The notes below the pieces were generated by a model, which had not been told where the DNA came from, did no database searches, and worked only from the letters and a program-made list of their open reading frames with translations. Shown one piece after another: positions 31,910 through 37,141 of a stretch of DNA of 64,000 bases. This DNA comes from Bradyrhizobium sp. WSM471. Its GTDB lineage: Bacteria > Pseudomonadota > Alphaproteobacteria > Rhizobiales > Xanthobacteraceae. The translations under genes were made by a program, and so were the position numbers. Every line of letters begins with the position of its first letter. Position 1 is the first letter of the stretch. The DNA is taken from the NCBI RefSeq assembly GCF_000244915.1, contig NZ_CM001442.1:2914001-2978000 (forward strand), read 5' to 3'.

Positions 31910-32006
31910 ACGACGACTGTGCCCGATGGGCCCAGCGAAGCAATATTGCTCTCCCCGAGTTTCAGCCTTTGGAGGCCTCAACATGTCGGCGGACCGCAGT
32001 CGTCGT
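31910..32006. repeat. Long-range inverted repeat in the FNT 5' leader
   Basis: ACGACGACTG at 31910-31919 is the exact reverse complement of CAGTCGTCGT at 31997-32006, enclosing 77 bases that include the 12-base palindrome AGCAATATTGCT (31939-31950) and GAGGCCTC. Transcripts from the sigma-54 promoter would start near 32017 and contain the whole element, so a large folded leader is possible. Confidence 0.55.
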
Positions 32007-32028
32007 TGACTGAGTGGTTACTGTGCAA

Positions 32029-32043
32029 GCAATCCACGTGCCA
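32029..32043 (-). promoter_or_regulatory. Consensus sigma-54 promoter for the FNT/kinase operon
   Basis: On the minus strand TGGCACGTGGATTGC fits the RpoN consensus TGGCAC-N5-TTGC exactly, with GG and GC 10 bases apart. Predicted transcription start near 32017, leaving a leader of about 245 bases before the FNT ATG. Implies RpoN control, probably with NtrC, as expected for nitrogen assimilation. Confidence 0.75.
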
Positions 32044-32158: not shown

Positions 32159-32191
32159 GCCCAATTTTTGTGCGACGCACAAGAACTGGGC
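32159..32191 (+). promoter_or_regulatory. 33-nt hairpin element of the nrtA 5' region
   Basis: Arms from GCCCAATTTTTGTGC pair with GCACAAGAACTGGGC around a GAC loop: 15 positions with one mismatch and one T-G pair. The core TTGTGCGACGCACA recurs in the same form upstream of narK (36851-36883), while the outer arms differ but still pair. A TCGCCAAATTTG box follows at 32195, the same 4-nt offset as in the narK copy. Confidence 0.7.
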
Positions 32192-32261
32192 TGTTCGCCA
32201 AATTTGACGGCGTGCGGAGATTTGCCAACAGAGAGTCGCTTCGGCGCAACGCTCTGTTTTT
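32191..32261 (+). terminator. Mutually exclusive hairpins, the second terminator-like
   Basis: CTGTT (32191-32195) pairs with AACAG (32227-32231), with an inner CAAAT/ATTTG stem. The same AACAG begins a second stem, AACAGAG (32227-32233) with CTCTGTT (32252-32258), containing an inner CGC-TTCG-GCG tetraloop hairpin and ending in five Ts (32257-32261). The two stems share bases, so only one can form: an attenuator-like layout. It lies upstream of the predicted sigma-54 start, so it matters only if a further upstream promoter exists. Confidence 0.5.
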
Positions 32262-32287
32262 GCTTGGCATTGTCGATTTCTTCGCTT

Positions 32288-32302
32288 TGGCACGCTTCTT
32301 GT
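32288..32302 (+). promoter_or_regulatory. Sigma-54 type promoter for nrtA
   Basis: TGGCACGCTTCTTGT: TGGCAC, 5 bases, TTGT, with GG and GT 10 bases apart. The narK promoter has the same element and both are followed by CGCGACGCCA at identical spacing (TGGCACG-N17-CGCGACGCCA), which supports a shared promoter and start region near 32313. Leader to the nrtA ATG is about 147 bases. Confidence 0.65.
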
Positions 32303-32459
32303 TTGAGAATGCGCGACGCCATCGATGCCGTCCCTCGAAGATCTCCATCCGAATTGTGACTTCTGCCATCCGGGGCTTCCCCGGAGACGCGCCGCCGTGC
32401 GCGTCGTGCGGTCGGCATGTGCGGATAGTCGCTCCGGTCACAAAGGATCATCACATTCA

Positions 32460-33923
32460 ATGACGAAGCCAATTGATCAGTCCTCGCGCAGCGGTCGTCA
32501 CGGCCACCATCTTGGCGGAGCCAGCGCGAACGCGCTCATGCTCCTCGACCGCCGCACGTTCCTCGCCGCAGGCACCGTCGCCGCGGCGTTTGCGGTCGCT
32601 CCCGGCCGCGTCCGCGCCGCCGCGCTCAAACCCGAGAAGGAAGAACTGAAGCTCGGATTCATCAAGCTCACCGACATGGCGCCGCTCGCGGTGGCCAAGG
32701 AGAACGGGTACTTCGAGGACGAAGGTCTGTTCGTCACGCTGGAGGCGCAGGCCAACTGGAAAGTTCTGCTGGACCGCGTCATCAGTGGCGAGCTGGACGG
32801 CGCGCACATGCTGGCGGGCCAGCCATTGGCGGCCACGATCGGCTTTGGCACGAAGGCGCACATCATCACGCCGTTCTCGATGGACCTCAATGGAAACGCC
32901 ATCACGGTCTCGAACGAGATCTTCGCGATGATGAAGCCGAACATCCCGAAGGATGCGAGCGGCAAGCTCGTGCATCCGATCAAGGCCGATACGTTGCGTC
33001 CGGCGATCGAGAAGCTGAAGGCCGACGGCAAGTCTTTCAAAATGGGCATGGTCTTCCCGGTGTCGACCCATAATTACGAGCTGCGCTACTGGCTCGCTTC
33101 GGGCGGCATCAACCCCGGCTATTATTCGTCCGGCGACGTGACCGGAACGGTCGGGGCCGAAGCGCTGCTGTCGGTGACGCCGCCGCCACAGATGCCAGCG
33201 ACGCTGGAAGCCGGCACCATCAACGGCTACTGCGTCGGCGAGCCCTGGAACCAGGCCGCGGTGTTCAAGGGCATCGGCGTGCCCGTGATCACCGATTACG
33301 AGATCTGGAAGAACAATCCGGAGAAAGTGTTCGGCATCACCGCGGCCTTTGCCGACAAGAATCCAAACACCGTGCTGGCGCTGACCAAGGCGCTGATCCG
33401 CGCCGCGATGTGGCTGGACGAGAATGCCAACGCCAATCGCGCCAAGGCCGTCGAGCTGTTGTCGAAGCCCGAATATGTCGGCGCCGACAAGGCGGTCATC
33501 GCCAATTCGATGACCGGCACTTTCGAATACGAGAAAGGCGACAAGCGCTCCATTCCGGACTTCAATGTGTTCTTCCGCTATTTCGCGACCTATCCCTACT
33601 ATTCCGACGCGGTCTGGTATCTGACGCAGATGCGCCGGTGGGGGCAGATCGCGGAGGCCAGGGACGACGCCTGGTACGAGGCGACGGCCAAGAGCGTGTA
33701 TCGTCCGGATATCTATCTTTCCGCGGCCAAGCTTCTGATCGCCGACGGCAAAGCGAACAAGGACGACTTCCCCTGGGAGAGCGAGGGTTATCGTGCGCCG
33801 ACCTCGGAATTCATCGATGGCGTCACTTACGACGGTCGCAAGCCCAACGCCTACATCGATAGCCTGAAGATCGGTCTGAAGGGCAAGCAGAAGATCGACG
33901 GTGCCAAGGTCATCGACGGCTGA
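32460..33923 (+). CDS. nrtA: Nitrate ABC transporter substrate-binding protein
   Basis: 487 residues. A Tat-type signal ([19 protein letters not shown], preceded by about 28 residues rich in His, Ser and Gly) and a NrtA/CmpA-family periplasmic domain: [53 protein letters not shown]. Binds nitrate (possibly nitrite or cyanate) and delivers it to the NrtB permease. The ATG at 32460 has a weak AAGGA 13 bases away; an internal ATG at 32538 would begin right before the twin arginines and is an alternative. A hairpin separates it from nrtB. Confidence 0.88.
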
Positions 33924-33933
33924 CGCGCATGAG

Positions 33934-33958
33934 CCGGGCCGCCGTCAGGACGGCCCGG
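33934..33958 (+). terminator. Intercistronic stem-loop between nrtA and nrtB
   Basis: CCGGGCCG (33934-33941) pairs with CGGCCCGG (33951-33958) around a 9-base loop, 10 bases after the nrtA stop, with no T-tract. Typical of hairpins that stabilise binding-protein mRNA and lower expression of the downstream permease genes. Confidence 0.6.
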
Positions 33959-34002
33959 TCTCCTCACTCGAAGTCGGGCGATGAACGCCGAGGGACAAGA
34001 CT

Positions 34003-35091
34003 ATGGCAGCGGTTACCGACTACATCGACCTCAGCGCAGAGGAGCGCAAGCGTGCCCGCCGGGAGCGGGTGTTTGCGCGCATCAATGCAGCAGCGATTTA
34101 TCTCAACATCCTCGGATTGGGATGGCTCGTGCCGCTGGCCCGCATTGCGGCCGGCGACAGCGTCAAGCCGCAGTTGAAGGAGCTACGCCAGGGATTGCTG
34201 GTGCCGCTGATTGGCATCGGTGTCTTCCTTCTGGCATGGGCCTGGGCCGCGCCGCGGGTCAAGACGTCGCTCGGCGCCATCCCGGGGCCCGCCGAGGTCT
34301 GGACGCAGGCCGGAAACCTGTACGCCGACCATCTGGCGGAGCGCGCCAAGCGGGCGGCCTTCTACGAACGCCAGGATCAACGTAACGCCAAAGTGGTCGC
34401 TGACGGTCATCCCGAGGATGTCCGGCATCGTGGCTATGCCGGCAAGCCAACTTACTTCGACCAAATACTAACCAGTCTCATGACGGTGGCGCTCGGCTTT
34501 GCCGTGGCGACGCTTGTTGCCGTGCCGCTCGGTATCCTGTGCGGCCTCTCCCGGACCATGAACAGTGCTCTCAATCCGCTGATCCAGATATTCAAGCCGG
34601 TATCGCCGCTTGCGTGGCTCCCGATCGTGACCATGGTGGTCTCGGCGCTTTATGTGAACCCGTCGGAATTGCTACCGAAGTCGTTGGTCATCTCCGCCAT
34701 CACGGTGACGCTGTGTTCATTGTGGCCGACGTTGATAAACACGGCGCTTGGAGTGGCTTCGATCGACAAGGACCTGCTCAACGTCGGCCGCGTCCTGCAG
34801 CTGCCGACATGGCGCACCGTCACCAAGCTGGTCCTGCCAAGTTCGCTGCCGCTGATCTTCACCGGATTGAGACTCTCTCTCGGCGTGGGCTGGATGGTGC
34901 TGATCGCGGCGGAAATGCTCGCGCAGAATCCGGGCCTTGGGAAATTCGTCTGGGACGAGTTTCAGAACGGCTCGTCGCAGTCGCTGGCCCGGATCATCCT
35001 GGCTGTGCTGACGATCGGGATCATCGGCTTCCTGCTCGATCGCGTGATGTACGCGCTCCAGTCCGCTTTCACCTTTTCCAGCCAGCGCTGA
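34003..35091 (+). CDS. nrtB: Nitrate ABC transporter permease
   Basis: 362 residues. BPD-type permease with membrane helices from about residue 35 onward and the EAA-loop region [40 protein letters not shown] roughly 90-residue hydrophilic insert ([35 protein letters not shown]) precedes the main transmembrane core, as in NtrB-type permeases. Pairs with the double ATPase encoded 7 bases downstream; the two-domain ATPase implies a dimer of this subunit. GGGACAAGACT lies before the ATG. Confidence 0.88.
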
Positions 35092-35098
35092 GGCCCTG

Positions 35099-36814
35099 AT
35101 GTCGTTCCTGTCGCTGAAAGGGCTCCGCAAGGGCTACGGTACCGGCGCCAAGCGCACCGACGTGCTGTCGAATGTCAATCTTGAGGTCGCCGAGGGCGAG
35201 TTCATCGCCATCGTGGGCTTCTCGGGCAGCGGCAAGACGACACTGATCTCGGCGATCGCCGGGCTGGTGCAGCCGGATGCCGGCGAGATCACGCTCAAGG
35301 GCAAACCGGTCGCGGGGCCCGGCCCGGACCGCGGCATCGTCTTTCAGTCGTACTCGCTGATGCCGTGGTTGACGGTACGCGGCAACATCGCTCTCGCTGT
35401 CGATCAGGTGTTTGCCCGCGAAAGCAAGGCTCAGCGCGCCGGCCGCGTCGACCGCTACATAGACATGGTCGGGCTTACGCACGCGGCGACCCGCCTGCCG
35501 GCCGAACTGTCCGGCGGCATGCGTCAGCGCGTCGCCGTTGCCCGTGCGCTTGCAACCAGCCCTGAGATATTGCTGCTCGACGAGCCGCTATCGGCACTCG
35601 ACGCGTTGACCCGCGCCAAGCTCCAGGACGAGATCGTCGACATCTGGTCGCGCGACAAGCGCACCGTGGTGCTGGTTACCAATGACGTCGACGAAGCGAT
35701 CCTGCTCGCCGATCGCATCATTCCGTTGTTGCCGGGCCCGAACGCGACGCTCGGGCAGCAGTTCAAAGTCGACATCCCGCGCCCGCGCGACCGGTCCTCG
35801 ATCAACGAGGATCCGCATTTCAAGCGGCTGCGGCAGGCCGTCACCGGCTATCTCCTTGACGTCGCGAAAGAGCGCTCGGCCGATGCCGATGCGACGGTTC
35901 GTACGCTGCCCAACGTCGTATCCATCACACAGATGGACAAGCCGCCGACGGCCTATCAGAAGGCGGCTGCTACGGTGACCATCAACACCGACCGCTATCT
36001 CGAATTCTCCCGGCTCTCGAAGGTCTATCCGACGCCGACGGGGCCGCTGACCATCGTGGAGAACTTCGATCTCAAGGTTCGCAAGGGCGAGTTCATCTCG
36101 GTGATCGGTCATTCCGGCTGCGGCAAGTCGACGGTGCTGTCGATGACCGCAGGTCTCAACGAGGTCTCTCTCGGGGGCATCATTCTCGACGGCCGCGAGG
36201 TAACGACGGCCGGTCCAGACCGAGCGGTCGTGTTCCAGGCGCCTTCATTGTTTCCCTGGCTGACGGCGCGCGAGAACGTTGCGCTCGGAGTCGACCGTGT
36301 CTATCCGCACGCCACGCGGCGGCAGCGCGACGAGATCGTCGACTATTACCTCGAGCGGGTCGGGCTTGCGGATTCTTTCGACAAGTCGGCTGCGGCAATG
36401 TCGAACGGCATGCGCCAACGAGTCGGCATCGCGCGTGCCTTCGCGCTGTCGCCAAAATTGCTGTTGCTGGACGAGCCGTTCGGCATGCTGGACAGCCTCA
36501 CCCGCTGGGACCTCCAGGAGGTACTGATGGAGGTCTGGAAGCGCACGCAAGTGACGGCGATGTGCGTGACCCATGATGTCGACGAGGCGATCCTGCTTGC
36601 CGACCGCGTGGTGATGATGACCAACGGACCATACGCCCGGATCGGTCACATCATGGAGGTCGACATCCCTCGGCCGCGCACGCGAAAGGCTCTGCTCGAG
36701 CACCCCAATTACTACCGATATCGCCGCGAGTTGCTCGATTTTCTCGAAGCTTACGAGCATGGAGCCGTGTCAAAGGCGCCGACGAAACCAGCGGTCAATC
36801 CGGAAGCGGCGTGA
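35099..36814 (+). CDS. Double-domain ABC ATPase for nitrate import (NrtC/NrtD-type fusion)
   Basis: 571 residues with two complete nucleotide-binding domains in one chain. NBD1: Walker [10 protein letters not shown] (40-48), signature LSGGM (137-141), Walker B ending DE (161-162), but Asn195 replaces the switch His (VTNDVDEA). NBD2: Walker [10 protein letters not shown] (337-345), signature MSNGM (434-438), Walker B DE (458-459), normal His492. Each defect falls in the same composite ATP site (NBD1 core with NBD2 signature); the other site is canonical. No NrtC-style solute-binding domain is attached. Confidence 0.88.
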
Positions 36815-36850
36815 GCAGGCGCGCATGCACGTTCAAATCGGTTGCATCAA

Positions 36851-36883
36851 GCTCAATCCTTGTGCGCCGCACAGGGATTGAGC
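36851..36883 (+). promoter_or_regulatory. 33-nt hairpin element of the narK 5' region
   Basis: GCTCAATCCTTGTGC pairs with GCACAGGGATTGAGC around a GCC loop: all 15 positions pair (one T-G). The core TTGTGCGCCGCACA matches the nrtA element at 32159-32191 in all but one base, while the flanking arms differ in sequence and keep pairing. TCGCAAAATTTG follows at 36887-36898, the same 4-nt offset as in nrtA. Confidence 0.7.
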
Positions 36884-36977
36884 GAATCGCAAAATTTGCG
36901 TGCGAAATAGTCCTGCGAAAGTCCGGAGCACTACGAACAAGCTCCTGAATCTCTTGCGTTTCCGGAATGCGGGCAGT

Positions 36978-36992
36978 TGGCACGGAAATTGA
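36978..36992 (+). promoter_or_regulatory. Sigma-54 type promoter for the narK operon
   Basis: TGGCACGGAAATTGA matches TGGCAC-N5-TTGC except for the final C. It is followed, at the same distance as in the nrtA promoter, by CGCGACGCCA; start predicted near 37003. The -24 GG is about 112 bases from the centre of the hairpin element (114 in nrtA). Confidence 0.6.
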
Positions 36993-37141
36993 AGCACCAA
37001 TCGCGACGCCAACGACGACGTCCCTCAACATCATCAATCAGCATCGTAACTCGCCACCGGGGGTGAAGCCTCGGAGCGCGCCTCCGTGGCCGGAGGCTGA
37101 GCCTGCAACGACGCAGCGGTGAGCCTGGAAGGGATTCTGCA

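Follow-up and report, generated by a model that had tools for sequence, protein, structure and literature searches.

Nitrate assimilation in Paracoccus (nas) and Bradyrhizobium (narK/nirA) is controlled by NtrC and sigma54 together with NasS-NasT, and the control regions combine a sigma54-type promoter, NtrC-like sites and a NasT-type leader hairpin. The Rfam narK RNA, RF03032, has a consensus that in our reading of its alignment resembles a sigma54 element with a hexaloop hairpin downstream. We analyzed a 64,000-nucleotide stretch of Bradyrhizobium sp. WSM471 (contig NZ_CM001442.1, positions 2,914,001 to 2,978,000; hereafter the window), in which the 5' regions of nrtA and narK carry one cis-module with all three of these elements. 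The modules differ from the described systems in that a pair of NtrC-like sites is mirrored around an invariant 15-bp dyad, and in that one repeat lies between the divergent promoters of FNT and nrtA. The dyad is also the core of the box TGCRNYGCASMA of PhaR, the polyhydroxybutyrate (PHB)-responsive regulator, at phasin genes, and nitrate promoters of other genera share AT-rich flanks with these boxes; in contrast to them, the nitrate module lies far upstream of a sigma54 promoter rather than around -35 and has outer GC partners at 13 bp. Our preferred reading, to which we assign a probability of about 0.62, is an NtrC/sigma54 enhancer combined with NasT antitermination, perhaps with an input from PhaR; the parts, their conservation, their spacing and the link to sigma54 come from comparison, and the binding proteins and the logic are what we infer.

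The initial annotation had described a two-copy module shared by nrtA and narK, and its repeats, boxes, -24 elements and the common CGCGACGCCA were all recovered. The 33-bp inverted repeat of nrtA spans 32159-32191 with the core TTGTGCGACGCACAA at 32168-32182, where two mirror-image NtrC-like spacings flank the PhaR-type box, and that of narK spans 36851-36883 with the core TTGTGCGCCGCACAG at 36860-36874. Exact copies of an AT box follow at 32195-32206 and 36887-36898. The nrtA AT box is included in an NtrC-like site, CGCCAAATTTGACGGCG (32196-32212), that matches the consensus at 9/11 positions, and a third NtrC-like spacing at narK, CGCAAAATTTGCGTGCG (36888-36904), matches it at 8/11; neither repeats nor sites are assigned a strand. 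On the plus strand lie the sigma54 -24/-12 elements of nrtA (TGGCACGCTTCTTGTT, 32288-32303, TGGCACG-N4-TTG) and narK (TGGCACGGAAATTGAA, 36978-36993), each followed by CGCGACGCCA. The distance from repeat centre to the TGG of the -24 element is 113 bp for nrtA and 111 bp for narK. Exact matches to the core occur in the window at these two repeats only. The AT box alone is not rare (10 window matches with up to two mismatches against 6.75 expected), and TTGTGCGNCGCACA has five exact loci across the 7.78-Mb genome. That the parts of the module and their conservation are real we state with high confidence.

Conservation of core and spacing in related genomes, on which the annotation had staked its module, was borne out by comparison of narK orthologs. 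A NarK search of 146 genomes gave 93 with a match at E<=1e-100; 14 of the 94 matches, at 50-51% identity, were excluded before counting, and the 80 orthologs of at least 82% identity were retained, with duplicates removed wherever we speak of unique sequences. The sigma54 pattern TGGCAY-N5-NTG is present in all 80 upstream regions and the repeat core in 79, of which 77 fit a stricter pattern and 58 form a perfect palindrome. Only 26 of the 80 have the AT box without mismatch. Core and -24 element are 111 bp apart in 54 of the 79, 135-136 bp in 15 and 89-114 bp in the remaining 10. At loci L194 and L196 a stretch like AARTRAGCGAATCGC is doubled between repeat and box at a spacing of about 25 bp, a possible origin of the longer spacer in one subclade. 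An nrtA of the window's type is uncommon (6/146 genomes), and a second gene of its Pfam family, NMT1_2 (the family was the same in 2/2 tested), often beside or divergent from FNT, has the same module.

Downstream of the repeat, the predicted transcript start adjoins a hairpin, GACGCC[ANYGNN]GNCGTC, whose loop positions A1 and G4 are kept in 22/22 non-redundant leaders, which we take to be the rule for recognition by ANTAR proteins such as NasT. In the window it takes the form GACGCC[ATCGAT]GCCGTC at nrtA (32315-32332, plus strand) and GACGCC[AACGAC]GACGTC at narK (37005-37022, plus strand). The annotation had recorded CGCGACGCCA as a shared string; it is the beginning of this hexaloop hairpin, which is kept in 80/80 genus leaders. 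No clear second hexaloop helix was seen beside the first in the leader consensus fold. Close to the narK start codon, at 37103-37116, stands another AACGAC hexaloop hairpin, CTGC[AACGAC]GCAG. The genome encodes an ANTAR protein. For B. diazoefficiens, NasT hairpins have been predicted in the leaders of narK and bjgb (PMC6759348), and nrtA is one of the genes with reduced expression in Bradyrhizobium DOA9 strains mutated in rpoN (PMC13207237). We regard a sigma54 promoter with a NasT-type leader as very probable at both genes.

The repeat itself had been read in two ways, its compensating arm changes as an RNA hairpin or cruciform and its position as an enhancer. Among the 65 unique narK sequences (L191, in which no core was found, was omitted from the count), 54 pair at 81-100% Watson-Crick at every arm position, 8-16 bp from the centre, with some double changes, as a folded structure would predict. 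The other 11 keep the core and the outermost GC pairs but pair at 0-18% at positions 8-12; in 11 narK promoters belonging to other genera in the family, the core is mostly present and, by eye, the long GC arms are absent. Pairing is therefore not the conserved property. The core pairs are almost invariant apart from the outermost, although an RNA stem would be free to covary, and the repeat stands upstream of the sigma54 promoter. Template switching at palindromes could also keep the arms symmetrical. An RNA or cruciform role for the arms thus appears very improbable, and the repeat is very likely a protein-binding enhancer, in keeping with its place relative to the sigma54 element.

Which proteins bind there can be approached from the core. 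PhaR footprints at phaP1 cover TGCGACGCACAA and TGCGTCGCACAA (PMC6201568), and both window cores fit the same TGCRNYGCASMA core, so the dyad could be the PhaR operator itself, with free PhaR (when PHB is scarce) repressing or assisting the nitrate-transport promoters and NtrC using neighbouring sites. Fifteen genomes together contain 34 copies of the perfect 15-mer TTGTGCRNYGCACAA, against one for the backward control; judged by adjacent genes, 14 belong to phasin loci, 17 to narK, nrtA or the second nrtA-like type, and 3 are elsewhere. Outside nitrate and phasin loci, L239, L296 and L297 have TTGTGC-RNY-GCACAA at the start of another conserved gene, of the same protein family by eye. A 19-bp matrix trained on 28 sites of 15 phasin loci and on no nitrate promoter ranked the two modules first and second among 159 window tiles (29.0 and 11.9; 99th percentile 7.85) and gave all 80 genus narK upstream regions a score of at least 7.4. 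In other genera it found a site in 9 of the 11 narK promoters, some of them close relatives, at shuffle p<=0.007 and 89-124 bp from the -24 element; the exceptions were L284 (p=0.14) and L287 (none).

The same matrix scored 12 or more at 22 of 80 alphaproteobacterial nrtA loci, compared with 1.9% and 1.05% of 2000 control pieces, which may themselves hold real sites. The sigma54 pattern was present at 32 of the 80, and 21 of these have a matrix box of at least 9; Azospirillum soli L077 was scored negative among the 32, though a box was found near another sigma54 match. A separate box pattern, which unlike the matrix was written after viewing the matches at the same loci, was found in 23/32 against 0.8% of control pieces. 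Of 38 plasmid nrtA matches, 12 were fetched and 8 had a sigma54 match, 6 of them alphaproteobacterial; three of these six carry an exact box (two Sinorhizobium, one Roseibium) and two Azospirillum have weaker ones (7.0 and 13.9), with the box pattern absent in A. brasilense and the box present in 0/2 gammaproteobacteria. Distances from box to -24 element in the distant nrtA promoters cluster near 104, 114, 124, 134 and 144 bp, with one outlier at 91 bp, a helical phasing by simulation (p = 2e-4; 8e-4 with unique values). The genus and family sets favour a period of 11-11.5 bp, their members being non-independent relatives.

Several observations count against the core as a PhaR operator. Phasin sites flank -35, whereas the nitrate box is tied to sigma54 and lies far upstream of the -24 element, and the conserved GC partners at +/-13 described below are not found at phasin loci. 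The searched main texts of two B. diazoefficiens PhaR studies do not name narK or nrtA, and that of S. meliloti does not name nrtA. Of 50 genomes chosen out of 80, 22 with the box and 28 without it, 49 encode PhaR, and its presence was set aside as an uninformative discriminator. On the other side, S. meliloti PhaR is reported to shift the SMb21115 promoter weakly (PMC12542648), and SMb21115 is described as a NasT homolog (PMC6616083). From these patterns, occupation of the core by PhaR, alone or together with NtrC, seems quite possible though short of probable.

The initial annotation had stated that neither repeat fits the NtrC consensus GCAC-N7-GTGC. This enteric consensus is indeed absent from the repeats as such, but the alphaproteobacterial spacing is present. 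The NtrC motif of this class is quoted as (T/C)GC(C/A)NNNNTTNNT(G/A)GCA (PMC5424462) and its spacing given as TGC-N11-GCA (PMC10746234), and each arm together with half of the core has exactly this alphaproteobacterial/rhizobial spacing, so that the repeat can be seen as a mirror-image pair of NtrC-like sites, with the AT box as a third. A GC lies 13 bp outside each core GC in 77/77 distinct genus contexts on both sides, with further GCs at +20, +33 and +46 in 87, 81 and 70%. Among 27 distant nrtA promoters selected for the box, the top offsets were +13 (48%) and -13 (30%) against a mean of 10%, and at the 15 phasin loci, on both strands, offset 13 was not among the top offsets. The full consensus YGCMNNNNTTNNTRGCA is matched perfectly (11/11) in 4 of the 32 distant sigma54-matched promoters (L016, L017, L033 and L078), overlapping the box in three. 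NtrC spacings number 4 per 140 bp at nrtA and 7 at narK against a 99th percentile of 4.4. GC dinucleotides also stand at 13-bp steps at 36889, 36902, 36915, 36928 and 36941, resembling an extended array of NtrC half-sites. In Caulobacter, chromatin immunoprecipitation of NtrC is reported to give peaks at the promoter of narK and the 5' end of nasT (PMC10274813). The spacings of CRP/FNR and NifA sites were set aside.

The core is not a generic NtrC site, being missing from glnB, glnK and nirA. It was not found in glnB/glnK upstream regions, of which 30/30, taken as a negative control, score below every narK upstream region; these had been rejected as an NtrC training set because independent sites were too few. 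The promoter downstream of nasT, which is nirA in the two loci where the gene was read, has a sigma54 element with an NtrC-like dyad 137-138 bp upstream at 3/3 loci and lacks the core at all three. This distribution also counts in favour of PhaR as the operator-binding protein. The confinement of the core to phasins and nitrate-transport sigma54 promoters would equally fit another, unnamed nitrate-specific regulator or enhancer-binding protein; such a protein seems unlikely, as most of the conserved bases are already explained by the NtrC spacing and the PhaR core.

A number of points weigh against the combined NtrC, sigma54 and NasT reading. The -12 elements of nrtA and narK (TTGT and TTGA) deviate from a TTGC-like sequence in lacking the final C, and the leader consensus fold is weak (-5.8), the first hairpin alone being clear. 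In B. diazoefficiens narK is reported to have risen in a nasT mutant under denitrification, and to have fallen under assimilation in another study cited there (PMC6759348). The NtrC-like matches in the window reach 8-9/11 at best, with the narK arms lower, and the TGC-N11-GCA spacing alone is common (mean 0.89 per 140 bp). Distant promoters L011 and L017 have an NtrC site apart from the box; in 10 unselected narK promoters of other genera, with L287, which has no box, left out of this test, the GC at +/-13 is present in 40% (4/10) on each side, against 14-15%. Caulobacter NtrC, finally, is described as being without the sigma54 contact loop (PMC10274813). With these points included, we still take NtrC to be the probable activator.

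The FNT promoter, which had been described as lacking the module, turned out to have parts of its own. A sigma54 element, TGGCACGTGGATTGC (32029-32043, minus strand), lies at a distance of 132 bp from the centre of the nrtA repeat; a hexaloop hairpin, CAGTC[AACGAC]GACTG, follows at 31997-32012 on the same strand. Both features recur at L142, L143 and L145, at 136, 134 and 178 bp from the repeat; at the five FNT loci beside the second nrtA-like gene type no sigma54 match was found with the pattern used. At window-type loci one repeat may thus serve both directions. An Rfam scan gave a weak match of RF03032 over FNT 31997-32043 (21 bits; gathering score 43.2); nothing came near the gathering score, and no match was reported at nrtA or narK. 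Genes in the window include FNT (minus strand), nrtA, nrtB, an nrtC-like gene, narK and genes for a haemoglobin-like protein, a NirB-like flavoprotein and a NasC-like reductase, a layout that is the same as that given for B. diazoefficiens (PMC4724949).

Taken together, these data suggest control in three layers. At the DNA level, an enhancer about 80-145 bp upstream of the promoter would consist of NtrC-like half-sites whose GC dinucleotides recur every 13 bp; the inverted repeat would form two sites mirrored around TGC-RNY-GCA and the AT box would lie within a third. In nitrogen-starved cells NtrC would assemble on this enhancer, and DNA looping would bring it to the sigma54 polymerase; since the central 15-bp dyad is a perfect PhaR-type operator, PhaR may bind as well. 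The second layer would be the sigma54 promoter. In the third, the transcript opens with a NasT-type hexaloop hairpin, so that elongation would depend on nitrate freeing NasT from NasS. A single repeat at nrtA lies between two divergent sigma54/NasT promoters, those of FNT and nrtA. More tentatively, the PhaR operator could be embedded within the NtrC enhancer of sigma54 nitrate-transport promoters in many Alphaproteobacteria, such that PHB would gate nitrate uptake directly, alongside NtrC and NasT, and one 33-bp repeat with two regulators could serve divergent operons.

Control by NtrC and NasT is already known; as far as our searches go, what is new is the mirror-image layout around a box of the PhaR type and the phased way in which it is conserved, no description of the repeat, or of PhaR at nrtA or narK, having appeared among the papers listed from the open-licence literature (subscription journals and supplements were outside its scope). 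A box phased upstream of sigma54 sites provides a recognisable signature by which operons of this kind could be spotted in genomes without annotation. In soil and symbiotic bacteria, nitrate uptake supplies denitrification and the release of N2O, and if the conserved dyad is a composite site for NtrC and PhaR, the storage of carbon would be linked to nitrate uptake at the promoter in organisms of the soybean-inoculant type.

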